Shown here piece after piece: positions 50,074 through 64,000 of a DNA stretch of 64,000 nucleotides. Position 1 is the stretch's first letter, and the number at the start of each line of letters is the position of its first letter. Origin of the DNA: Aquimarina sp. ERC-38 (GTDB lineage Bacteria; Bacteroidota; Bacteroidia; Flavobacteriales; Flavobacteriaceae); the NCBI RefSeq assembly GCF_026222555.1, contig NZ_CP098511.1:3019501-3083500 (forward strand), written 5' to 3'. The notes beneath the pieces are model-generated. The model was given only the letters and a program-made list of their open reading frames with translations, did not search any database and was not told the DNA's origin. A program made the translations under genes and the position numbers.

Positions 50074-50511
50074 ATGAATACCTTGCTAAGTTTGTTAGAT
50101 CTAAGTCGTCTTATCGTTGATACCGGATTATTTGTATTAATTTGGATGGTACAATTGATTATTTACCCCGGTTTTTCTTTTTATGAAGTGTCTGATCTGG
50201 TAAAATGGCATCAACAGTACACACCTAGGATTACATATATTGTAGCCCCTTTGATGCTCCTTCAAGTTACTTTAGTATTCATACAATTATTTCAAATACG
50301 ATCATTTTATACTATGGTAAGTACCATAGTTGTAATACTACTTTGGGGAATTACCTTCTTTTATTTTGTGCCCAATCATGGTAAAATTGCTAATAATCAG
50401 GCTACTCTACAAATGATACATCAAATGATTGCAATAAATTGGATACGAACTGTATTATGGACCTTTTTGTTTTTGTGTTCCCTAGTGCATTTTTATAGAA
50501 CCTTCTACTGA
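50074..50511 (+). CDS. Four-helix membrane protein of unknown function
   Basis: 145 aa with four predicted transmembrane helices (about 17-35, 57-75, 81-100, 123-142). A charged loop with 'VKWHQQYTPRITY' lies between helices 1 and 2 and 'VPNHGKIANNQATLQMIHQMIAINWIRT'-type residues before helix 4. Proteins of this kind are found next to queD in flavobacteria but have no known role. Starts 1 bp after queD stops, so cotranscribed. Confidence 0.8.
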   Translation: MNTLLSLLDLSRLIVDTGLFVLIWMVQLIIYPGFSFYEVSDLVKWHQQYTPRITYIVAPLMLLQVTLVFIQLFQIRSFYTMVSTIVVILLWGITFFYFVPNHGKIANNQATLQMIHQMIAINWIRTVLWTFLFLCSLVHFYRTFY

Positions 50512-50805
50512 TTACCTTAGTGGAATATTTTGTTTCTGTTACTTCAATTCTTCCTTTTGTTCATTAATTTTCGTAATTACACTAAAACAATTAGTAATTG
50601 TTCATTTTTTGAAAACCTTATATAGAATCACCTTTTTTTTAGATTTTAACAACATAAGATATACCCATATTAAAATAATTCCATCCAATCTAAATAGTTA
50701 ATACGGTAAAACCATAATATTTATAAGGTTATGAAAATTTTACTGTTAATTAATTCTTAAATTAATTTTTATTTTATAGTATTGTAGTCCCAAAATAACC
50801 TATTT

Positions 50806-53800
50806 ATGGTAAAATTATTACGCTTTACCCTTATATTTTTATGGATTTCCTATGCGTCTTTAGCAAATACTATCACAAAAGATAGTATCCATAATAATTT
50901 AGAATACAACAAGTTAAACTTAAAAAAAGGGTCTAAAACATTAATAGCTTCGTTAAAAACAAATTTAAATTTAAAGGTTAAGACTTCAAGAACTTTTAAG
51001 GAATTTACCAACTTAGATATTTCTGAAAAAAATGTTAACAATTTTCAAAAAAAACAAATTGAAGAAGGTTTTAATTTTAAAGCCGCTGATTCCAGCTTAA
51101 ATAAGAAATGGTTGCAAATAGCAAAAAATACATTTGCTACCATTGAACAAAGTCAAAATTATATCGACCTTCTTACTGAAGATGATCTTTCATCCCTTCC
51201 TGTAGCTACTAGACCCAAAGAAATTAGTAATATAAAGTATACTATGGGAGTAGCCAAAGCGGTCTTCAAGCCAGCTTTTACAGAACTCATTGTTTTTCTT
51301 AAAGTCGAAACTCCAAAAGGTACGCTATATCTCGGAGCAAAAGATATTAAACTATCACATGAGGGCGGGATTATCGGTGAAGCCAAACTAAGCCTTATCT
51401 CTCAATTTACTATGAAAATTGACGATGGTAAGGCTATAGTGATCTTAAAAGGAAGTTTTCAGCAACCTTTCACATATGCACTTATTGACTGTTCCGGGTT
51501 TAACGAACTAAGTGTCGATGCGGATGTATTATTTTCACAAGGTCTGATTCACCCAGTTGATAAAGATGGGAACAAAATTGGTGGATATGTGCAATCCAGT
51601 TTTCGAACGGTCATCACCGATTGGAACGATTTAGTAGTTAACATCTCCTTACCAGAGTTTGGGATCAATGGATTGAAAGGTACTACCTTCCGATTGAACA
51701 GTGCTGTGTTAGATTTTAGTGATATTCGTAATGACCCACTAATGCCTGGTGCTTACCTGTCTAAATATTACAATAATAATCCGAATCTATGGCGTGGGGT
51801 GTATATCAACTCCCTTCAGGTGGTTTTGCCTAAAGCTTTTAAAAAGAAAAATCAAGATAAAAGAATTTCTTTTGGGGCTACCAACTTAATTATTGATTCG
51901 CAAGGGATTACCGGAACCTTTATTGGGGAAGACATATTTTCAATTGATGAAGGTTCTGCATCCAAATGGAAATTTTCTCTGGATCGATTTGCCCTAGGCA
52001 TTGAAGCTAATACCTTAACAATGGGAGAATTTAATGGGGAACTAGTGCTTCCGGTATCAAAAGTAGAACGCTTGCAGTACAATGCCATAATTGGTCCGGA
52101 CGAATATACATTACAGGTGTCGAGTACTAATGCTATACAATTTGATGTTTGGAACGCTGAGGTGACCTTAAACCCAGAATCATATATTGAAATGAAGGTC
52201 AAAGACGGAAAATTTTTACCGAAGGCTAACCTTCACGGAACAGTTAATTTGGCTTCTGGTCTCGGAGATAATAGCAATCAACAATCCGAAAATAAAACCG
52301 TAAACTTTCAAGGGATAAAATTTGAAAACATGCTTTTACAAACCGAAGGACAAAAGTTTTCTGTTGAGTACTTTGGATATAAAGGCAATCTTAAATTAGC
52401 AGGTTTTCCATTAACTATTAATGAAATTGGATTGCAAACCCCCCAAGGGTCTAATCGGGCAAACCTGATTTTTGATTTTAATATAAACCTTACTTCTGAA
52501 AGCGACGGGGGTAATGGTGCCGGAAGTAAACTAATATTTGCCGGAAAGCTTGAAGATGACAATGGAAGAGATCAATGGAAGTTCGATAGGGTAGAACTGG
52601 AACGTATGATGCTGGCCATGGAGGTAGGCGGTACTAAATTAGCAGGAGCTATTTTTATCTTTGATGACGACCCTACTTATGGAACCGGATTTGCGGGGTC
52701 GGTAAGTGCCAAATTTGGTGCGGGACTAAATTTGGAAGTTCAGGCTAAAGCTTTATTTGGGCGAACTCAGGAATTTCGTTATTGGTTTGCAGACGCTCAA
52801 GCGGTTATTCCCGGTGGTGTGCCTATTTTCACTGGCTTTGCTCTCAATACTTTTGGCGGTGGGATATATAATAGAATGAAAATGGCAGGGGTCTCTAATG
52901 ACCCCAATGCCGCTATGAATCATATTGGTGCTTCTTCTTCGGGAGTAATTTACGAACCATCCTCATCGAGCGGATTAGGGATGAAAGCTATGGTTGGGAT
53001 AGCTACACAGAATTCAGAAGATTTATTTCATGCCACCTTAGAATTCGGGATGACCTTCGCTAAATCAGGAAAAATCAATGATATTTATTTCAGAGGTCGT
53101 GGGGAATTGCTTTCTCCACCTACAGGTAACTTTGCTGAATCTGTGCTGGAAAAACTCGCCAAAATTGCTTTGGAAGAAACAGTAAGCTTTCCATCAACCC
53201 CACCTTCGGGAGCTATGAGCGCAGATGTGTTTATCAGCTTTGATTTTGCGAATGATATTTTTCACGCTACTTCTGATGTTTTCGTCAATTTTGGTGTATT
53301 AAAAGGCTACGGTAATTACGGTCGAGCCGGGTGGTTGGATTTTTATGCTTCTCCAGATGAATGGCATATGTTAATTGGAACTCCGGAAGATCCTATTGGG
53401 ATTGTCCTAAATATTGGCATCTTAAAAATAGAAACTACTTCTTATTTTATGACTGGAGAAAATCTGCCAAATAGCCCTCCACCGTCGCCTATGGTGTCAG
53501 AAATCTTAGGGATTGATGCAGCAAAACTTGATTATACTCGCGATTTGGGTCAATTAAAATCCGGATTGGGACTCGCTTTTGGAGCAAATGTAAGTGTAGA
53601 TACCGGTGACCTTAAATTTTTAATTTTTTATGCACGTTTTCAGGCAGGATTAGGTTTTGATGTAATGATTAAAGATTACGGAGAGGCTCGATGTAAAGGT
53701 TCTTCCGGACCTATTGGACTTAACGGGTGGTACGCTAACGGACAAGCCTATGCTTACTTGCAGGGAGAGTTAGGCTTATTTTTTAAACTCTTCGGAAGTA

Positions 53801-55422
53801 AGAAGCGAATCCCAATAATCAAAGGAGGGGGTGCCGTGATTGTACAGGCACGTCTACCGAACCCAGCCTGGTTCCAGGGGTATATGGGAGGACATTATAA
53901 TCTACTGGGTGGTTTAATTAAAGGAAAATTCCGTTTTAAACTGGAAATTGGTGAAAAATGCGAAATCGTAGGAGGAAGCCCTATTGAAGGTATTGTAGCC
54001 ATAGGGGATATGAGTCCAAAGGATAATAAGAAGGATGTAGATGTTTTTGCCTCTCCCCAGGTAGTCTTTAATATGCAACTGAATAAAGTATTTGAAATTC
54101 CGGATGAGACGGGTGACCGTAAATATCGGATTATGTTAGATCATTTTAAAGTAACCAAAGATGGACAACTGATTAAAGGTGAAATTAAATGGAGTGATCA
54201 GAATGACGTTGCCATCTTTCAATCTCATGAAATTCTTCCTCCAAAGTCGAATATAACCAGTGCGGTTCAATTACACTTTGAGGAGTTCAAAAATGGGCGT
54301 TGGGAAGTAATTAAGGAAGATGGAAAAGTATCTCTGGAAAGCAAAGAGGTCACCTTTACCACCGGAGAAGCTCCTAAAACTATTCCTAAAGAAAATATTG
54401 TTTATATGTACCCAGTCATCGAACAACAGAATTTCTTTATTAAAGAATATAATTTGGGTTATATCAAATTAGAAAAAGGACAGGAATATTTATTTCAACC
54501 TGTCCCAAATTGGAAGAAAACTTTAATAATGAAGGGGTCAGACGGGCAGGAGTTAGAAACTACTTTTAGCTACAACGCTTCTAAAAAACAAGTGGCCTTT
54601 CCCTTACCCAAAGGAATGAATAGATCAACAGCTTATGAGGTTAAAGTAGTTCTTATTCCTCCTAAAAATGATATGCAATCAAATGTGACCACAACCGAAG
54701 TTCGAAAGGATCTTAATGAAGATACAAATATTACGGTACGCTCCCGAAAAGCAGAAGGTGTGGTAATTTCCGGAGAAGAAAGGGAATTACTTACTTATAC
54801 TTTTAAGACTAGTGAATTTAACACGTTCCAAAAAAGAATAAACGCCATGCGAGAAAACAAGGAGCTTTACTATTATCTGACCTATCCTTATGGTTTGGCA
54901 TTGGTCTCTTCAGTAGATGATATGGAAGCTTTTGATCTGGCTGAATTGGTAGGTAACGAGTATACGGGGAACCAACCTCTGATTCGTGTTAAAGCGGTAT
55001 TAGACAATCCGTATTACTTACAGAATATTTATCCTTTACTTTATAAAGGCTATCCGTTCCGTGAAGATTTAACCATAGACCGCAAAACTGATAAAATCAG
55101 TATTCCTCCCGTAGAAGGGGTAGAACCTATGTCCTGGTATCTGGATTATCTCGAAAATAATTATACCGGAGAAACTAGACAGTACAACCCGTACCGCTAT
55201 AATCTTACCTATTATTTCCATCAGGATTATGAAGCCATTCGTTATAAGTTAGTCAATTCCGGGCAATATGATACTCCGGGGATTCCAAGAAAGCTTGTAA
55301 CTGATCCTTTTCCGTTGATGCGAAATGGAAAATATAAAACCGAACTTAAATACGTACTTCCCGGACAGGTGAATACCGGTAGGTCACAACAAATTAAATA
55401 TACCAATCCGCTTTATGAATAA
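50806..55422 (+). CDS. Giant exported protein, first gene of the surface operon; no known domain
   Basis: 1538 aa. Signal peptide (LLRFTLIFLWISYASLANT), then a repetitive beta-rich central region with Gly-rich amphipathic strands ('GSVSAKFGAGLNLEVQAKALFGRTQEFRYW', 'FHATLEFGMTFAKSGKINDIYF', 'GLGFDVMIKDYGEA') and a C-terminal 350-residue part with adhesin- or plug-like strands. It ends in IKYTNPLYE with no T9SS domain. The repeating long hydrophobic-polar strands look like a big barrel or beta-solenoid, but I cannot tell which. The 3' end overlaps the next gene by 8 bp. Unknown family. Confidence 0.8.
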   Translation: MVKLLRFTLIFLWISYASLANTITKDSIHNNLEYNKLNLKKGSKTLIASLKTNLNLKVKTSRTFKEFTNLDISEKNVNNFQKKQIEEGFNFKAADSSLNKKWLQIAKNTFATIEQSQNYIDLLTEDDLSSLPVATRPKEISNIKYTMGVAKAVFKPAFTELIVFLKVETPKGTLYLGAKDIKLSHEGGIIGEAKLSLISQFTMKIDDGKAIVILKGSFQQPFTYALIDCSGFNELSVDADVLFSQGLIHPVDKDGNKIGGYVQSSFRTVITDWNDLVVNISLPEFGINGLKGTTFRLNSAVLDFSDIRNDPLMPGAYLSKYYNNNPNLWRGVYINSLQVVLPKAFKKKNQDKRISFGATNLIIDSQGITGTFIGEDIFSIDEGSASKWKFSLDRFALGIEANTLTMGEFNGELVLPVSKVERLQYNAIIGPDEYTLQVSSTNAIQFDVWNAEVTLNPESYIEMKVKDGKFLPKANLHGTVNLASGLGDNSNQQSENKTVNFQGIKFENMLLQTEGQKFSVEYFGYKGNLKLAGFPLTINEIGLQTPQGSNRANLIFDFNINLTSESDGGNGAGSKLIFAGKLEDDNGRDQWKFDRVELERMMLAMEVGGTKLAGAIFIFDDDPTYGTGFAGSVSAKFGAGLNLEVQAKALFGRTQEFRYWFADAQAVIPGGVPIFTGFALNTFGGGIYNRMKMAGVSNDPNAAMNHIGASSSGVIYEPSSSSGLGMKAMVGIATQNSEDLFHATLEFGMTFAKSGKINDIYFRGRGELLSPPTGNFAESVLEKLAKIALEETVSFPSTPPSGAMSADVFISFDFANDIFHATSDVFVNFGVLKGYGNYGRAGWLDFYASPDEWHMLIGTPEDPIGIVLNIGILKIETTSYFMTGENLPNSPPPSPMVSEILGIDAAKLDYTRDLGQLKSGLGLAFGANVSVDTGDLKFLIFYARFQAGLGFDVMIKDYGEARCKGSSGPIGLNGWYANGQAYAYLQGELGLFFKLFGSKKRIPIIKGGGAVIVQARLPNPAWFQGYMGGHYNLLGGLIKGKFRFKLEIGEKCEIVGGSPIEGIVAIGDMSPKDNKKDVDVFASPQVVFNMQLNKVFEIPDETGDRKYRIMLDHFKVTKDGQLIKGEIKWSDQNDVAIFQSHEILPPKSNITSAVQLHFEEFKNGRWEVIKEDGKVSLESKEVTFTTGEAPKTIPKENIVYMYPVIEQQNFFIKEYNLGYIKLEKGQEYLFQPVPNWKKTLIMKGSDGQELETTFSYNASKKQVAFPLPKGMNRSTAYEVKVVLIPPKNDMQSNVTTTEVRKDLNEDTNITVRSRKAEGVVISGEERELLTYTFKTSEFNTFQKRINAMRENKELYYYLTYPYGLALVSSVDDMEAFDLAELVGNEYTGNQPLIRVKAVLDNPYYLQNIYPLLYKGYPFREDLTIDRKTDKISIPPVEGVEPMSWYLDYLENNYTGETRQYNPYRYNLTYYFHQDYEAIRYKLVNSGQYDTPGIPRKLVTDPFPLMRNGKYKTELKYVLPGQVNTGRSQQIKYTNPLYE

Positions 55423-57520
55423 CCAACGGTATACATATCAAAAATGCCTGCTATGGATAACGGTCCTTTTAATAGCAGGTAAAGTGCAGTCACAAGAACC
55501 TATCGGAGACCTTCTTCCGGAAGTAAAGGTAATTGGTAAGGCTACTAAAAACAGTATTTTGCTACGTTGGGGGGTAACTACTCCGACCAGCTGGAAATAT
55601 GCTAATGATTATGGCTACATTATCGAGCGAAAAACAATTACCCGAGGTGGTGAGATCTTAAAAGATTCGGAGGTTACGCTATTAACAGAGCAACCTATTA
55701 AACCACAACCCATGATAAAATGGGAGGAGTTTACTGAGAAAAACAAAAATGCTGCTATTGTTGCTCAGGCACTTTATGGTGAAAGCTTTGAAGTGGACCT
55801 AGAAGGTGGTGGTAATGCCATGGTGAGCATCGTTAACCAGGCTTCTGCTCTGGAACAACGATTTTCGTTTGCTTTATTTGCGGCAGATCAGGATTTTGAA
55901 GTAGCTAAGTTTTCAGGACTGGGATTTGTGGACGCATCGGTACTTCCCGGAGAGCAGTACTTATATACTATTAAAACTGCCATTACAGAAGAAAAACTAT
56001 CCGTAAAACCAGGGGGAGTATATTTAGGGCTTCAGGATTTTCAGCCTTTACCAGAACCTCTGGATGTGAACGGGATATTTAAAGACCAGAGTGTAGCATT
56101 AAGCTGGAACTATGTGCTTCTTAAAAGGCAATATAACAATTACATGGTAGAACGCTCAACTGATGGCGGAGTTACATTTGACAGGTTAGATCATATACCG
56201 GTAGCTAATTTAAGTGAAAAAGTAAAAAATCCTTCTGACCGGATGTTCTACCTGGATAGCCTTCCACAAAACGGGAAAGAATATCAGTATAGAGTTAAAG
56301 GTATTTCTCCTTTTGGAGAAGTTGGTCCCCCTTCGGATATCGTAAAAGGTCAAGGTGTTAAAGCCTTAGGGTTTACTCCGGGAATTGCTTCGGTAAAACT
56401 ATCTGAAACCGAAGATACGGTTCTGTTAATATGGGAATTTCCGGAAGAAGGAATGGAGCAGTTGTCCCATTTTGAACTCAACCGATCTGATAAAGTAAGA
56501 GGCGGTTATCAAGTACATACTCCTAATATTTCAAAAGCGCAACGGCAAATAGAAGTAGGAAACCTGCAAGCTATCAATTATTTTAACATTACTGCCGTAG
56601 GAGTAGACGGGTCAAAAAGAGGATCTTTTCCTAAAATGGTGCAACTTGATGATAGTACCCCACCGGCAATACCTATAGCAATTACAGGAACCATAGATTC
56701 TACCGGAGTGGTACAGTTACAATGGCAACAAAACCTGGAAAATGACTTTTTAGGCTACCGGGTGTTCCGTGCAAATATGGAAAATGAGGAGTTCACCCAG
56801 GTGACCGTAGAACCTATTTCAAAAAGTTCATTTACAGATACTGTTAGTGTCCGACTCCTTAATAATACCATTTATTACAAAGTCCAGGCCTTTGACAAAC
56901 GCTATAATCCTTCTGAATTTTCTGAAGTTGCTGCTATTAAAAAACCGGATATAATTCCTCCTACCCAACCGGTGTTTGGTTCTTTTCTGGTTGAAGAAGG
57001 AAAAGTCATTTTAAAATGGATTGCAAGTAGTAGCGAGGATGCTTTAAAAACCCTGGTATATAGAAAGGAAAAAGGAAAAGAAGATATCTGGGAGCTAGTT
57101 GCGGAAAAAGCAATTGCTGAGACTAAATTTGAAGATACTTCCATAGTTCCGGCTACCACATATCTCTATACCATTCTTACTATGGATTCTTCAGGATTAG
57201 AATCAGAACCAGTAGTTCCCCTAAGCATCACTACAACTAAAACATCGATCAAAGCGGTTGATCGATTCCAAGCTGTGGTCAATGTTGAAGCTCAAAATAT
57301 TAAGATCACCTGGAAATACACCGGTGGGGAGGTTGTAGAATATTCGCTTTTTAAAGCCGGAGAAGAAGAACCACTTACTTTATATAAAGTATTTAAAGAA
57401 GGGCATAAAGATTTTATTGATAGCAATTTAAAGATTAATACCAACTATACTTATGGGATACAGGCCTTACTTCGAAATGGTGCTAAATCCCCGGTAAAAA
57501 CAATCAACGTAGCATATTAA
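55415..57520 (+). CDS. Exported multi-fibronectin-III protein
   Basis: 701 aa. Signal peptide ending KVQSQ, then a Greek-key start domain ('VIGKATKNSILLRWGVTTPTSWKYANDYGYIIER') and about four to five fibronectin type III repeats with the recurrent 'VxLxWxxxxxxxxxxYxVxR' pattern ('VALSWNYVLLKRQYNNYMVERS', 'VQLQWQQNLENDFLGYRVFRA', 'VILKWIASSSEDALKTLVYRK'). There is no T9SS domain, so it probably stays as a periplasmic or outer-membrane-bound partner. Starts inside the last 8 bp of the previous gene and stops 2 bp before the next GTG. Confidence 0.88.
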   Translation: MNNQRYTYQKCLLWITVLLIAGKVQSQEPIGDLLPEVKVIGKATKNSILLRWGVTTPTSWKYANDYGYIIERKTITRGGEILKDSEVTLLTEQPIKPQPMIKWEEFTEKNKNAAIVAQALYGESFEVDLEGGGNAMVSIVNQASALEQRFSFALFAADQDFEVAKFSGLGFVDASVLPGEQYLYTIKTAITEEKLSVKPGGVYLGLQDFQPLPEPLDVNGIFKDQSVALSWNYVLLKRQYNNYMVERSTDGGVTFDRLDHIPVANLSEKVKNPSDRMFYLDSLPQNGKEYQYRVKGISPFGEVGPPSDIVKGQGVKALGFTPGIASVKLSETEDTVLLIWEFPEEGMEQLSHFELNRSDKVRGGYQVHTPNISKAQRQIEVGNLQAINYFNITAVGVDGSKRGSFPKMVQLDDSTPPAIPIAITGTIDSTGVVQLQWQQNLENDFLGYRVFRANMENEEFTQVTVEPISKSSFTDTVSVRLLNNTIYYKVQAFDKRYNPSEFSEVAAIKKPDIIPPTQPVFGSFLVEEGKVILKWIASSSEDALKTLVYRKEKGKEDIWELVAEKAIAETKFEDTSIVPATTYLYTILTMDSSGLESEPVVPLSITTTKTSIKAVDRFQAVVNVEAQNIKITWKYTGGEVVEYSLFKAGEEEPLTLYKVFKEGHKDFIDSNLKINTNYTYGIQALLRNGAKSPVKTINVAY

Positions 57521-57531
57521 AAGTGGGAATT

Positions 57532-60500
57532 ATGAAGAGATTATTATTGTTACTAGGGATGTTATTAGGTATGCATTATACTTATGGACAAATATATAAT
57601 ATCAAATATGAACTGAAGGTAGCCCCTGGACATGGAAGTTATGGAGGGGGATGTAGAAATGATATCAGGGTACGTGTTTTTTATAGAGTTAACAATGGTC
57701 GAGAACAATTTAGGGACCTTAATAATGGGAGATATCTGGATTTAAATGGAGGCTCGACAGATCCTGACCCTTTTTCTGAGAGATTTGAAATAAGGGGGGG
57801 TACGGTAAAATTCACCAAATTAGAGACCTGGGCTTCCCGAAACTGGCGTAGGAAAGCGGGAGGATGTGGAGGAAGCGTAGCTTTTAATACTGAAAAGGAA
57901 ACACATCCTATAAATTCAAACTGTACTACTATAGTAACTGATATTACAAAATGGTGGAGAGCTTCACTGTCGATAACTATAGAACCAGAATTAAGTATTA
58001 CCAAACCGGGTAACAGAAAATCCGTAATTGCATGTGTTGGTGAAGACCATCTTTTACAAGCTACACCAGGGTTTACTCCAAAGGGTAATATATATGTATG
58101 GGAGTTTTTGGATAAAATTAATAGAGAGGGTACAAAAACTCCCGGATATCAGGCAGTAATAGATTATGCCGCAAAAAAACATATTGAATTAGAAGCTTGC
58201 AATACAAGTACAGATCCTGATAAATGTCAAGGGGAACTAAAGGCCTTTACAGATGCTATGGTAGAATCATTCAATTATAGTCCGAAATATACCTATAGTG
58301 ATGTCTGGAGGCCTATAAGAAATATCACAAGAGATGCATCTTCCCAAGTTTCCTTACGTGATATTTATCCGTTAGATATATATTATCAAAGGGCAATAGG
58401 AACACCAATTGATATTCGTATTAAAACAAGCTGTGATAAAATTGTTCATGGTTACCAAGTAACCTTTTTACCTGAACCTCCGAAAGCCATAGGTACTCCC
58501 GACATTATTGAACCTACCTGTTCGTATACGGATGATGCGAGATTTACGCTATTTTTTGATCGGCAGATAAATAGGAACGAAAAAATAAATATTGCACTAC
58601 GTAAAAAGTTTAAGAATGGAACTTATGAGACTTTTGATAGTAATGACAATATTCGATATTTTGATTTTGTAGATGGTAGAAAATGGTCATATACTTGGAA
58701 AACTAAACCTAATATAGGCAAGGAATTAGTAGCCGGTGATTATGAGTTCTTAGTAGCAGGAGTTGAAAGAAATGCAGGGTCGAATGCTACTCCTACATGT
58801 GATCCGCTAAAAGGTTATTTTACGATTGAACCCACTGATCGTGTTCAATTTAACGCTACTAAACTACAAGATGAAACCTGTTTTAACCTTAATAATGGGC
58901 AGATTGAACTTACCGCATCAGGGGGTTCAGAAACGTATTCTTATATTCTGAATGGCACTAATTGGGTTGGATCTAAAACCTTTACTCAAGCGCAATCACC
59001 ATTTCTACTCAGGAACCTGCCCCCTGGAACTTATAATATTCAGGTTCGGGATTCTAATGCATGTTATGATAAAGAAAGTAGTGGCGACACTAATAAAGTA
59101 GTAACTATACGGATCGAAGAAAAACAAGAACTACGGCATCAAATTATTACCAGTACGACGAATCCACAAAATCCCGGGGCACCCGGATTAAGAGATGGAG
59201 TGATCAATATCACTTCGGTTTCCGGGGGTAGCCCCAAAAAGGAGAACGGAAAGGACTATTATGACTATGTAGTATTGCTAAATGGATCTTCTGTAAATAC
59301 ACTTACGGGCAGAGGGTATGCAAATGGTTTTCGAATAGATGGTCTGGGCGAAGGGAACCATCGAATCCGATATACCGACGCCAATGGGTGTTCAGTAACT
59401 TCTGATTTACCCCAAATTCGGGATCCGCAACCTATTACCTATACCCTCACTAAAAGCGATCCAAGTTGTGCCGATGCTAATGACGGAGAACTTAAGGTTT
59501 CAAATATTCAGGGTGGATATCCTAATTATGTTGTACGCTGGACTCGTAACGGAGTTCCCATCCCCGGTAATATAACTTCCATTACCGGTAGCGATGCCAC
59601 CTATACCCTTACTATTACCGATCAACGCTCCGGTCGAGCCTATCAAGATAATATACGATTTGACAACGTACCGCTTCCAATTATATTTACTCAAAATATA
59701 GCTCTAATTCAGTGTTATGGTGAAAAAGCAGCGGTTACAATTACCGCCCGCGGTGGAAAACCACCTTATCAATATGGTGTATGGTCAGGAACTCAAGTGA
59801 CCTGGTATAATTCTAACCGGATTGAACTTCCGGCTTCTACAGGTGCCGGATATCGATTCCAGGTGCGCGAACGGTATCATACAGGCTGTGATTCGCCTAT
59901 CTCTCGGTATTACCCCATACGAGATGTTTCCCAGATCCTCATTGATGACAGTACTATTGTCGATAACAAAATATTTGGGGATAATAAAGGAAGTATTAAG
60001 ATTACTGTAACCGGTGGCAAACCACCTTATACCATCCGCTGGAGTAAAGAAGGAGATACTGGTTTTATAGCAAATGGAAATACAATTACGGGATTAACTT
60101 ACGGATACTATATCCCAACAATTACCGATAATACCGGAAGTTGTACCGTAATAGGCGATCGTATCTTAGTTGACCAACCTGATGAACTTATAGTAACCCT
60201 GGATGTGCTTTCTGATCCAATCCGGTGTTTTGAAGAATCCGGAACGATTACAGCAACCGTAACCGGAGGTTCTGAGAATTATGCTTACACCTGGTATTTG
60301 GACGGAATTAAGATTTCCGGTGAAAATGGAAATCAATTGGAAAATAGTAGTACCGGAAATTATAGTATCTTAATTGATGATGGCTATACCACTACTACAG
60401 AGGCTGTCACCTTTACCCAACCGGATCAATTAGGTTTTACCATTGCAGGTAAAGACGTACTATGTTATGATGGCTCTGATGGTGAGATTCATATTAATGC

Positions 60501-63500
60501 TACCGGGGGAACCCTTCCTTATTACTATTCCATCGATAATAAGCAAACTTATACTTCTTTTAACTTGACTGCCGATCATCATCTTACTAATTTGATTGCC
60601 GGAACCTATGAGGTTTGGTTAAAAGACGCTAATGATTGTGAACCGGATTCGTCACAAACCATTGAAATTAACCAACCCGGGGAAGTTCGAATTACTTTAG
60701 ATACGTTATTTGACGTAACCCGAAGAGGAACAAACGATGGGTTTATCGAAGTGTCCATTACCGGTGTCGATGGACCATATACCGTAGAATGGACTCGGGC
60801 AGAAGATCCAAGCTTTTTAGAAACCTCAGAAGACCTTAAAGATGTATATTTTGGAACCTATACCCTTAGCATCTTAGATCAGAAAAACTGTGGTTTTACA
60901 CAAACCTATACCGTACGAGAACCTTTACCTATGCAGGTAGCCTTAACTATAGAAACCCCGGTTTTATGTTATGGAGATCAACTGGGCGAATTATTGGCAA
61001 ATGTAACCGGTGGTTTCCCCATTGAATCAACCCCGGAAGATTTTAGTTATCAATGGTTCCAATTAGAAGGAGCAAACGAGATAGCGCTAAATACGGATAC
61101 ATCCCTATATACACTTTCTAACTTACCAGCCGGATGGTATAAACTCATAGCTACGGATGCTAAAGGGGTGGTTGCGGAAAATACTATTGAAATTACACAA
61201 CCTGATGACCTAATCGTTACACTTATGGATACCACTAATGTTTTATGTTACGGAGAAGCTACAGGAAGTATCAAAATTTTGGTAGAAGGTGGACCTAAAA
61301 ATCCTCAAACCAATACTTATTTACCTTACACCTATCAATGGACAAAGGAAGAAGATCCGGGTTATACGGCAACTACAGCAAACCTGGACAATATCACCGC
61401 TGGTACGTATAACTTACTGATTTTTGATGATAACCTTTGTACTACTACTTTAAAAGATATAGTCATCGACCAACCTAAAGCTCCGCTAGAGGTTACTAAT
61501 GTAGTCGCTACAAACTTAACCGGGTTTCAAACAGGTAACGGTAGTATTTCGATGGAAGTTATAGGGGGAACTCCTCCGTATACCTATCAATGGACAAATG
61601 CAGATGATGCTTCTTATCAAGCATCTACTTTAAATATTCAAAATCTTTCCATTGGAAATTATACCCTCGTAGTGACTGATACCGCAAACTGTAGCCTTAC
61701 TTTTAAACAACAAATTACCGAACCGGATAAATTAATTAGTACTATCAATCCGCTTACTATTGCAGAAAGCGTACAATGTCATGGAGGTAATACGATACAA
61801 CCCTTAGTAACTAGAACCACCGGGGGATTCGGGGCCTATAGCTATGCCTGGTACGAACAAGGTGACCTATCTACTATTTTATATACCGGGGCAGATACTC
61901 CCGTAGTCCCGGCAGGAACGTACAAGGTAATTGTTACTGATGAAAACGGAAATATTGCTGAAGATGTTTATAGGGTAGAAGAACCGGATGCTTTAGAAAT
62001 AACCGAGAAAGTAACTCACCTTAAATGTAATAATGATACGGACGGGCGTATTGACGTTACGGTTTCCGGAGGTGTTGCCCCTTATACGTATGTTTGGAGT
62101 AACGGTACAATACAAGAAGATTTAGATAATTTAAGAGCTGGTAGTTATACGTTGCGTATTAAAGATGCAAACGGATGTATTTTATCTAAAGTTATCGAAG
62201 TTGTTCAGCCGGGAGCTTTATTTGCCAATATCACCAGAACTTACCCTTCTTCAAAAGGAGCTAATGACGGAAATATTCATATAGAAATGATTGGAGGGAC
62301 TCCTCCCTTTACTTATAACTGGAAAATGAGTAACGGTTCCTCCCTAACCGAAAGCGGAAATATTCTAAATAATACCAGTGCCGGAAAGTATGCTGTTACC
62401 ATCACGGATGTTAATAATTGTATGTTGGTCATTGATGATGTTGATCTATTTGAGCCCCCGGCCTTAGAAGTAACGGTAGCACAGAATAACGTAATTTCAT
62501 GCTTTGGGAATACCACCACCGGAAGTTTAATTGCTGTAGTGGAAGGAGGCGTACCATACAATGCAATCAAACAATTCGAATACCAGTGGTATGATGCAAC
62601 TACCAATGTATTTCTCGGTAGCGATGCAGCAGTTCTATCAAATATTAGTGCAGGAGATTATTACGTACGGGTAACGGATGCCGTAGGTACTTCAGCCACA
62701 AGTAAGGTATTTACAATAACGGAACCCGAGGAGCTGGTTGTGACTATAGATACTGACTTTATCAATTGCGGAGACCAGGAGGACTGGCATTTAATTCCTA
62801 TAGTACAAGGTGGAACTCCACCTTACAAATACCAATGGAATACCGGGGATACAAAAGTGGAACTATATAACCGCTTGGCCGGAACCTATAAGGTAGACCT
62901 TATCGATCAACGCGGATGTACTGCAACGACTCAGGTAACTTTGGTTCCGCCACCAAACTTACAGGCTAGTCATACTTTTACCATTCCTACTTGTTATCAA
63001 GGTTGTGATGCTTCTATTGATCTAGAAGTTATTGGGGGAACGCCTCCTTATCAATATAACTGGAGTAATCAAACAAAAAGGAAGAATCTAACCGAGGTTT
63101 GTGTGGGTACTTATTCTGTCACTGTAACAGACTTTAAGGGTTGCCAGATGGATTATACTATAGAAATTCCAAACCAGGAACCAATAGTTGTGGACTTGGG
63201 TGAAGATGTTACTTTATGTAAAGATCAGTTTGAGAAGTTGGATGCTAGCATTGCTGATACTAAAGCAACTTATCAATGGACCGCAACTAACGGATTTACG
63301 GCAACAACCGCACAAATAGAGGTGGATAAGAGTGGTACATATACTGTGATTGCAACAAATAGTAATGGCTGTACGGCAACCGATACTATTGAAATACAAA
63401 CTACTACTAATGAAATCTACACTAATTTTATTGCAAATTCTCAAGTTTATGTAGATGAAGTTTTTGTTCTGGTTGATATTAGCGAACCGAATCCGGATAC

Positions 63501-63957
63501 CCTACTTTGGGAATTCCCTTTAGAAGCTGATGTACTGTATCAAGATAATGACTATGCAGAACTGTCTTTTGACCGTCCCGGGGAATATGAAGTAAGCATT
63601 CAAACCAGTTTCGGGTTGTGTACTGAGGTACATTCTAAAACCATTTTTGTTGTAGAAAAAGAATTTGGCCCTAATACCGAAGAAACGAACCTACCGGAAG
63701 AACAAATTGAATTTATGATGTATCCAAATCCGACTCTTGACGGAAAGTTTACAGTAGCTATTGAGCTTCCATACAGGCAAGCGGTAAGTTGTAAGATGTA
63801 CGGAATTGCCAATAACACCTTATTAGCGGTACAAAAAGGAACTGATAAAAATAAATACGAATTTAAATTTGATATGGATCATTTACCTAGTGGAACCTAT
63901 TTTATGTTGTTTGAAACTTCATCAGGTAGCCAGGTACACAAACTAATATTGGAATAA
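57532..63957 (+). CDS. Giant T9SS cargo with 17 SprB-type repeats (adhesin-like)
   Basis: 2141 aa from the ATG at 57532; a GTG three codons earlier (57523) is also in frame. Signal peptide MKRLLLLLGMLLGMHYTYG, an N-terminal Cys-containing domain (about 20-150), a second region to about 430, then 17 SprB-type repeats (about 437-1880). These follow the family pattern 'C-x-G-x-x-x-G-x-I-x-x-x-V-x-G-G-x-x-P-Y-x-Y-x-W'. An Ig-like domain (about 1885-1960), a PKD-like one (about 1965-2040) and a T9SS type A domain (about 2062-2141, MYPNPTLDGKFTVAIELP) follow. SprB is the mobile gliding adhesin in Flavobacterium johnsoniae; this protein has the same repeat family but a different layout. Confidence 0.9.
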   Translation: MKRLLLLLGMLLGMHYTYGQIYNIKYELKVAPGHGSYGGGCRNDIRVRVFYRVNNGREQFRDLNNGRYLDLNGGSTDPDPFSERFEIRGGTVKFTKLETWASRNWRRKAGGCGGSVAFNTEKETHPINSNCTTIVTDITKWWRASLSITIEPELSITKPGNRKSVIACVGEDHLLQATPGFTPKGNIYVWEFLDKINREGTKTPGYQAVIDYAAKKHIELEACNTSTDPDKCQGELKAFTDAMVESFNYSPKYTYSDVWRPIRNITRDASSQVSLRDIYPLDIYYQRAIGTPIDIRIKTSCDKIVHGYQVTFLPEPPKAIGTPDIIEPTCSYTDDARFTLFFDRQINRNEKINIALRKKFKNGTYETFDSNDNIRYFDFVDGRKWSYTWKTKPNIGKELVAGDYEFLVAGVERNAGSNATPTCDPLKGYFTIEPTDRVQFNATKLQDETCFNLNNGQIELTASGGSETYSYILNGTNWVGSKTFTQAQSPFLLRNLPPGTYNIQVRDSNACYDKESSGDTNKVVTIRIEEKQELRHQIITSTTNPQNPGAPGLRDGVINITSVSGGSPKKENGKDYYDYVVLLNGSSVNTLTGRGYANGFRIDGLGEGNHRIRYTDANGCSVTSDLPQIRDPQPITYTLTKSDPSCADANDGELKVSNIQGGYPNYVVRWTRNGVPIPGNITSITGSDATYTLTITDQRSGRAYQDNIRFDNVPLPIIFTQNIALIQCYGEKAAVTITARGGKPPYQYGVWSGTQVTWYNSNRIELPASTGAGYRFQVRERYHTGCDSPISRYYPIRDVSQILIDDSTIVDNKIFGDNKGSIKITVTGGKPPYTIRWSKEGDTGFIANGNTITGLTYGYYIPTITDNTGSCTVIGDRILVDQPDELIVTLDVLSDPIRCFEESGTITATVTGGSENYAYTWYLDGIKISGENGNQLENSSTGNYSILIDDGYTTTTEAVTFTQPDQLGFTIAGKDVLCYDGSDGEIHINATGGTLPYYYSIDNKQTYTSFNLTADHHLTNLIAGTYEVWLKDANDCEPDSSQTIEINQPGEVRITLDTLFDVTRRGTNDGFIEVSITGVDGPYTVEWTRAEDPSFLETSEDLKDVYFGTYTLSILDQKNCGFTQTYTVREPLPMQVALTIETPVLCYGDQLGELLANVTGGFPIESTPEDFSYQWFQLEGANEIALNTDTSLYTLSNLPAGWYKLIATDAKGVVAENTIEITQPDDLIVTLMDTTNVLCYGEATGSIKILVEGGPKNPQTNTYLPYTYQWTKEEDPGYTATTANLDNITAGTYNLLIFDDNLCTTTLKDIVIDQPKAPLEVTNVVATNLTGFQTGNGSISMEVIGGTPPYTYQWTNADDASYQASTLNIQNLSIGNYTLVVTDTANCSLTFKQQITEPDKLISTINPLTIAESVQCHGGNTIQPLVTRTTGGFGAYSYAWYEQGDLSTILYTGADTPVVPAGTYKVIVTDENGNIAEDVYRVEEPDALEITEKVTHLKCNNDTDGRIDVTVSGGVAPYTYVWSNGTIQEDLDNLRAGSYTLRIKDANGCILSKVIEVVQPGALFANITRTYPSSKGANDGNIHIEMIGGTPPFTYNWKMSNGSSLTESGNILNNTSAGKYAVTITDVNNCMLVIDDVDLFEPPALEVTVAQNNVISCFGNTTTGSLIAVVEGGVPYNAIKQFEYQWYDATTNVFLGSDAAVLSNISAGDYYVRVTDAVGTSATSKVFTITEPEELVVTIDTDFINCGDQEDWHLIPIVQGGTPPYKYQWNTGDTKVELYNRLAGTYKVDLIDQRGCTATTQVTLVPPPNLQASHTFTIPTCYQGCDASIDLEVIGGTPPYQYNWSNQTKRKNLTEVCVGTYSVTVTDFKGCQMDYTIEIPNQEPIVVDLGEDVTLCKDQFEKLDASIADTKATYQWTATNGFTATTAQIEVDKSGTYTVIATNSNGCTATDTIEIQTTTNEIYTNFIANSQVYVDEVFVLVDISEPNPDTLLWEFPLEADVLYQDNDYAELSFDRPGEYEVSIQTSFGLCTEVHSKTIFVVEKEFGPNTEETNLPEEQIEFMMYPNPTLDGKFTVAIELPYRQAVSCKMYGIANNTLLAVQKGTDKNKYEFKFDMDHLPSGTYFMLFETSSGSQVHKLILE

Positions 63958-64000
63958 AGTAAAGAGCCCCATAAAGCAATGCCCCAAATAAACGCTTTAT

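Follow-up and report, generated by a model that had tools for sequence, protein, structure and literature searches.

Among described systems, the TANFOR polymorphic toxins come closest to the gene cluster considered here. As far as the accessible text of the 2020 study goes (Jana, Salomon, Bosis 2020; PMC7073777), the TANFOR toxin end BaCT is a DNase with a binding immunity protein; SprB, C-terminal sorting (CTD) and fibronectin type III (Fn3) domains are enriched near TANFOR genes; and export by the type IX secretion system (T9SS) is hypothesised, the exit route being left open in 2020. According to the accessible part of PMC12618676, type A CTDs use the PorV shuttle, and SprB itself is type B with SprF. 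The window analysed here is a stretch of 64,000 nucleotides from Aquimarina sp. ERC-38 (NZ_CP098511.1), positions 3019501-3083500 of a 4.43-Mb single-contig genome. Near its end three genes, G1, G2 and G3, open a conserved cluster whose products likely (probability about 0.6) form a surface platform that would deliver TANFOR polymorphic toxins to other cells. On the best reading, this toxin-delivery platform is tied to the T9SS and has two parts that can be exchanged, a recognition head and a toxin.

All three genes lie on the forward (+) strand. G1 (50806..55422) encodes a giant, mostly beta secreted protein of 1538 amino acids (aa), likely the partner of the TANFOR toxin carrier; G2 (55415..57520), directly after it, encodes a 701-aa secreted Fn3 protein; and G3 (57532..63957) encodes a 2141-aa SprB-repeat protein with a T9SS type A sorting domain. 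A preliminary description of the window had the genes joined by an 8-bp overlap and a 2-bp gap. The overlap of G1 and G2 is seen in the open reading frame (ORF) coordinates; the gap fits a possible GTG start of G3 at 57523 (2144 aa), whereas the ATG start at 57532 (2141 aa) leaves 11 bp. As was also described, each product has a signal-peptide-like N-terminus (judged by eye), and only the third has a T9SS sorting domain (PF18962, TIGR04183). The proposed three-gene unit was right in that the genes do exist, face the same way and stay together as a conserved set, and fell short in that the unit is larger and is not a stand-alone surface system: G4 (+ strand; first 22 bases at 63979..64000, genome 3083479-3085968) begins 21 bp past G3, so the gene block runs on beyond position 64000.

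The region past 64 kb, correctly foreseen as decisive, was extracted and holds a barrel gene, a lipoprotein gene, a TANFOR gene, small genes and an orphan TANFOR copy. The same-strand order after G3 is G4 (829 aa), g5 (516 aa; by eye it has a lipoprotein signal), g6 (1025 aa) and three small genes, which encode 153, 229 and 207 aa, with successive gaps from G3 through the 207-aa gene of 21, 8, 29, 3, -1 and -10 bp; a second g6-like copy (1123-aa ORF) and a 144-aa gene follow. G4 is predicted to be a large outer-membrane beta-barrel from the modelling and comparison of a relative; neither Pfam nor NCBIfam has a family that it matches above cut-off. The N-terminus of g6 is a TANFOR-type domain, and g6 aligns with relatives' TANFOR-type proteins at 69% to 33% identity, a strong homology. 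Six of ten relatives' TANFOR N-termini match TIGR02542 at E<=0.01 and none passes its cut-off; the best is Pedobacter locus L074 (41.6 bits, E=1e-10, positions 9-140 of 145), followed by L088 (33.6 bits). Toxin domains (nuclease or ADP-ribosyltransferase) are present at the TANFOR C-terminus in three of ten relatives scanned, and small immunity-like genes, three here, come straight after the TANFOR gene. The cargo is a TANFOR polymorphic-toxin-type protein rather than an RHS one. The second TANFOR copy (genome 3092522-3095989; L005:9123-12590) has 94.4% DNA identity to the first over 1600 bp. Its start lies just past the signal-peptide region, it lacks a signal peptide itself, and its C-terminus is a different one; it is an orphan toxin-type module. 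A third scrap of TANFOR domain lies near genome 3096736-3096927.

An argument for linking G1 to the TANFOR protein comes from 14 distant loci taken for a fusion analysis. Ten have one uninterrupted ORF with TANFOR near the N-terminus followed by G1; nine of these also appear in the genome-wide TANFOR search, and those nine sit between barrel and G2 genes. The fusion at L105 rests on a partial TANFOR match in the distant-locus scan only, and at L097 the G1 end continues in an overlapping ORF. At L104, L106 and L108, G1 stands behind about 580-650 residues unrecognised by the TANFOR profile (L106 is cut by the stretch end), and L107 has TANFOR without G1. The same gene run surrounds them, with G2 in 13 of 13 G1 loci and the barrel in 12, the L104 barrel being a weak match in the genome-wide barrel search. 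No CTD gene was found in the fused units with our own narrow CTD profile and with Pfam on nine neighbouring ORFs of six loci. Because TANFOR and G1 form a single polypeptide in distant loci, a Rosetta-stone argument would have them work as one unit. G1 had been described as the adhesin's partner; the fusion points to a partner of the TANFOR carrier and not merely an adhesin helper.

Genome-wide co-occurrence was assessed in 247 Bacteroidota genomes (the same draw as far as listed). G1 was found in 27, TANFOR in 33, the barrel in 48 and all three in 20; the pairs G1 and TANFOR, G1 and barrel, and TANFOR and barrel share 22, 25 and 29 genomes, with one-sided Fisher p values of 8e-19 to 7e-21, uncorrected for shared ancestry. 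Of 31 G1 frames, 24 have a same-strand TANFOR match within 30 kb. SprA of the T9SS is present in 190 of the 247 genomes and in all 38 that carry G1 and/or TANFOR (random-draw chance 1.8e-5). It is also present in genome G000, so that SprB/CTD and Fn3 neighbours occur there within a T9SS-bearing genome.

A G1 profile search of genome contigs gave 440 relatives, of which the best 80 loci were kept, with stretches of at most 10 kb on each side of G1. Their titles name Aquimarina, Tenacibaculum, Flavobacterium, Flagellimonas/Allomuricauda, Flavivirga, Polaribacter and others, and further Chitinophaga, Pedobacter, Ohtaekwangia and Tannerella. G2 comes directly after G1 in 75 of the 80, and in 71 of those 75 the two overlap or lie no more than 30 bp apart; relatives' ORFs begin at the first possible start codon, so the reported overlaps are upper bounds. 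The five exceptions are two loci cut by a contig end (L057, L060), one with permuted order (L089), one with a small ORF between the genes (L085) and L083, whose order seems permuted like that of L089 and whose short stretch holds no G2. An SprB/CTD gene is present in at least 68 loci, TANFOR in at least 46 and the barrel in at least 44, these being lower bounds because of the length of the stretches. By eye, the genes in Aquimarina and Tenacibaculum usually run from the barrel through the TANFOR gene and one or more small genes to G1, G2 and the SprB-CTD gene. With 566 G1 matches and G2 so regularly behind G1, the three-gene block is more than chance, and the earlier claim that its members are kept together in relatives is borne out. 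In some loci, those of Chitinophaga, Flagellimonas and Tannerella among them, a PKD-like lipoprotein of about 450 aa follows the SprB gene. In 11 of the 80 loci, including one truncated at a contig end, this lipoprotein stands alone; it is a recurring extra member of loci not titled Aquimarina (L048, L054, L056, L058, L061, L079, L083, L085, L086, L087, L089).

G1 itself represents an undescribed family, as had been suspected. It has no Pfam or NCBIfam match at E<=0.1, and 566 proteins (the window's own included) match it at E<=0.001 among 7986 scored candidates. Literature searches, with most subscription papers and all preprints outside their reach, turned up a single study that deals directly with the subject, PMC7073777. 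They gave no account of G1, of the barrel, of the fusion or of the variable head, and no later work on how TANFOR proteins exit the cell. In a structure model, residues 607-1035 (52624..53910, + strand) form a long antiparallel beta meander, porin-like at low global confidence and with a root-mean-square deviation of 12.6, and residues 1061-1189 (53986..54372, + strand) form an Ig-like domain.

A Pfam/NCBIfam scan finds Fn3 in G2 and 11 SprB-repeat stretches in G3. The type A sorting domain of G3, at residues 2063-2139 (63718..63948, + strand), scores 40.4 bits against PF18962 (cut-off 27) and 24.2 bits against TIGR04183 (cut-off 23); together with the signal peptide seen by eye it gives G3 the features of a T9SS type A substrate, and among the cluster genes scanned only G3 carries such a signal. 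The third gene is accordingly the T9SS-sorted SprB-type surface protein that had been proposed. A head of about residues 20-440 (57589..58851, + strand), the most variable part among relatives, precedes an SprB-repeat stalk of about residues 450-1950 (58879..63381, + strand).

Variation within the cluster was followed in 15 disjoint pairs drawn from the 80 loci, closest first, with G1 identity of 70-99.5%. A complete G1, a complete G2 and a nearby SprB/CTD gene were required. The selection rules excluded L086/L087, which are 100% identical, and any locus in which two or more heads are split off. Median pair identity is 93% for G1, 92% for G2 and 91% for the barrel (9 pairs); the first 500 aa of TANFOR stand at 93% and its last 250 aa at 24% (13 pairs), and the head of the SprB-type protein at 57% (15 pairs) and its tail at 81% (9 pairs). 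The head is less identical than G2 in 15 of 15 pairs and less identical than the tail in seven of nine; the last 250 aa of TANFOR are less identical than its N-part in 12 of 13. TANFOR thus has a polymorphic C-terminus (24% vs 93% identity), with toxin domains in the three relatives mentioned above. Six profiles along the SprB-type protein place the variable part in the first 200-500 residues. The G3 head of the window is 27-28% identical to the heads of its five nearest relatives, whose G1 proteins are 61-64% identical. Head and toxin end change independently (L019/L035, L018/L019, L032/L043), and L012 and L038, with G1 96% identical, have different nuclease ends. This pattern fits a recognition tip and a warhead.

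Fifteen loci of Flavobacterium, Tenacibaculum, Polaribacter and one [Flexibacter], examined by eye, have split heads: after G2 and before the long SprB gene come one to four secreted proteins, each 384-625 aa in length, whose N-termini vary and which have a common SprB-like end motif, and the long SprB protein opens more directly with a repeat-like domain. They may be separate subunits, possibly adhesin heads docking on the stalk. These loci are L051, L059, L061-L063, L065, L066, L068-L070, L072, L077, L078, L082 and L084.

Taken together, these parts suggest the following mechanism. The T9SS would place G3 on the surface as a stalk, and its variable head would, as we infer from sequence, bind a target cell. 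The G4 barrel would serve as outer-membrane anchor or conduit, and G1, with G2, would hold the TANFOR carrier there; contact with a cell would lead to release or transfer of the toxin, the small downstream genes would protect the producer, and the second, orphan TANFOR copy would act as a reserve from which toxins can be exchanged. A more tentative proposal, to which we give rather less than even odds, is a toxin-delivery machine of a separate kind in Bacteroidota. It would have begun as an ancient launch or export complex of a large-bore G4, a TANFOR-G1 carrier and the Fn3 protein; exchangeable toxins would have been added later, together with a coupling to a fibre that the T9SS displays and whose exchangeable head picks the victim. 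If so, victim recognition and killing would be swapped independently.

A number of observations weigh against toxin delivery by such a platform. TANFOR is absent from the examined stretch in 34 of the 80 loci, including all 12 titled Flavobacterium; across the genome sample, TANFOR went undetected in 5 of the 27 genomes with G1, and G1 in 11 of the 33 with TANFOR. Against TIGR02542, whose cut-off is 67 bits, the genome's own TANFOR copies score 14.4, 17.2 and 19 bits. For the two copies at this locus, the C-termini gave no match to a Pfam toxin family or to a solved structure (E 0.3 and 0.83 for the structures), seven of ten relatives' TANFOR C-termini are without a toxin match above cut-off, and Pfam matches none of ten relatives' immunity candidates and none of four own small genes. 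The SprA link is confounded by ancestry because 17 of the 20 SprA-less genomes listed (37 more are unlisted) belong to one family. In two of nine pairs the tail differs more than the head, two of the six profiles (L024/L035, L032/L043) have extra variable patches in the stalk, and a variable head could instead reflect escape from phages or predators. Both structure models have a predicted template modelling score (pTM) of 0.45. Pfam matches none of five fused TANFOR-G1 proteins scanned; because of this, and because the fused units yielded no CTD gene, the core may predate toxin use, and the original TANFOR-G1 unit was possibly no toxin system. Transcription, secretion and killing by the cluster are all things we infer.

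Two other accounts use most of the same parts. The TANFOR toxin, G1 and G2 might cross the outer membrane as a complex with the CTD-bearing G3 through the SprA translocon, with G4 only an anchor, which would extend the proposal, made in the accessible text of PMC7073777, that TANFOR proteins are T9SS substrates. The presence of SprA in every carrier genome, the SprB/CTD gene in at least 68 of 80 G1 loci, and the type A CTD on G3 beside a TANFOR toxin, G1 and G2 without sorting domains all agree with such a passage; the fused TANFOR-G1 units speak against it, showing no CTD gene by the narrow profile and Pfam scan described above and having the barrel adjacent, and we think it rather unlikely. 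Alternatively, G1, G2 and G4 might serve the SprB-type adhesin in an attachment complex without toxin delivery, the toxin genes being passengers in a variable locus. The loci with no TANFOR in the examined stretch, the 15 Flavobacterium-, Tenacibaculum- and Polaribacter-type loci with separate head-like secreted proteins, and the fused proteins scanned, which have no Pfam toxin domain, would suit this account. It is difficult to square with the TANFOR-G1 fusion in 10 of 14 distant loci, the strong co-occurrence of G1 and TANFOR across genomes, and polymorphic TANFOR C-termini with toxin domains in the same loci, and it appears improbable.

The preliminary description had seen an RHS-linked adhesin export unit with G1 and G2 as periplasmic or outer-membrane partners. 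The conserved gene set agrees with it, as does an RHS-like protein with a GIY-YIG-like end (by eye) in a second, damaged cluster of the same genome (1476506-1522709; L007, L008, L009, L109). In that cluster the barrel gene is broken and is accompanied by a paralogue of G1 (37% identity), G2 (43%), a G3-like gene and a 1654-aa TANFOR protein. The RHS gene lies there within a 28-kb insertion, with transposase- and integrase-like genes (names by eye), that splits the G1 paralogue and leaves a C-terminal remnant beyond it. Among the stretches of the 80 relatives, L069 holds an RHS-like fragment (by eye; no systematic RHS search was made), and the recurring neighbour is TANFOR. An RHS-linked unit is very improbable.

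A third, broken barrel copy (genome 933233-935604; L110) adjoins transposase-like genes (by eye). Upstream of G1, a 294-bp intergenic stretch (50512..50805, + strand) is where the block promoter would lie; it holds no exact TAnnTTTG box. A 145-aa ORF at window 50074-50511, between a PTPS-family gene and G1, has no Pfam/NCBIfam match.

The cluster shares with the TANFOR toxins of PMC7073777, as far as the accessible text describes them, a variable C-terminal toxin part and SprB/CTD and Fn3 neighbours in a T9SS-bearing genome, and it appears to share a secreted N-terminus of TANFOR type and a downstream gene that may give immunity. Since that study had reported TANFOR beside SprB/CTD and Fn3 genes, the system is undescribed in part only, and in one sense it is ordinary, a divergent member of known TANFOR toxin loci. 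What is new is the conserved chassis: neighbours there were found via known domains, whereas the G1 and barrel families match no Pfam, and G1, the barrel, the TANFOR-G1 fusion and the variable head are not among the features reported in the accessible text. The analysis names previously unmodelled parts (G1 and the G4 barrel), adds a physical-link argument from the TANFOR-G1 polypeptide and points to the head of the adhesin as the part that likely sets specificity; the new chassis makes the question of TANFOR export and targeting testable. A split between head and toxin would give a natural two-cassette system for the study of bacterial weapon retargeting.

The sprB-C-D-F operon of Flavobacterium johnsoniae (accessible parts of PMC12618676, PMC9870892, PMC12635249) likewise has SprB repeats, a T9SS-sorted surface protein and co-encoded envelope proteins. 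SprB differs in its type B CTD and PorP/SprF shuttle. The CTD of G3 fits the type A model and G4 matches no Pfam/NCBIfam family above cut-off, so the cluster is not an SprB/SprF gliding adhesin pair, and its genomic link is to toxins, not gliding. CdiA/CdiB is alike in outline, with a surface stick, a variable receptor-binding part, an exchangeable C-terminal toxin, an immunity gene, an outer-membrane partner and orphan toxin modules; it differs in that the present cluster has head and toxin on separate proteins and a T9SS signal. Contact-dependent inhibition (CDI) by two-partner secretion was set aside: at E<=0.1, G1-G4 and both TANFOR proteins encoded at this locus show no TpsA-type haemagglutinin, POTRA or TpsB Pfam domain. 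So was an RHS/YD-repeat toxin, with no RHS family in the same proteins. The Streptomyces umbrella toxins, to which the cluster is likened by description only, are Gram-positive and secreted as particles; as far as the accessible text of PMC11062931 and PMC13274773 goes, they share with it exchangeable recognition subunits, polymorphic toxins and a conserved scaffold.

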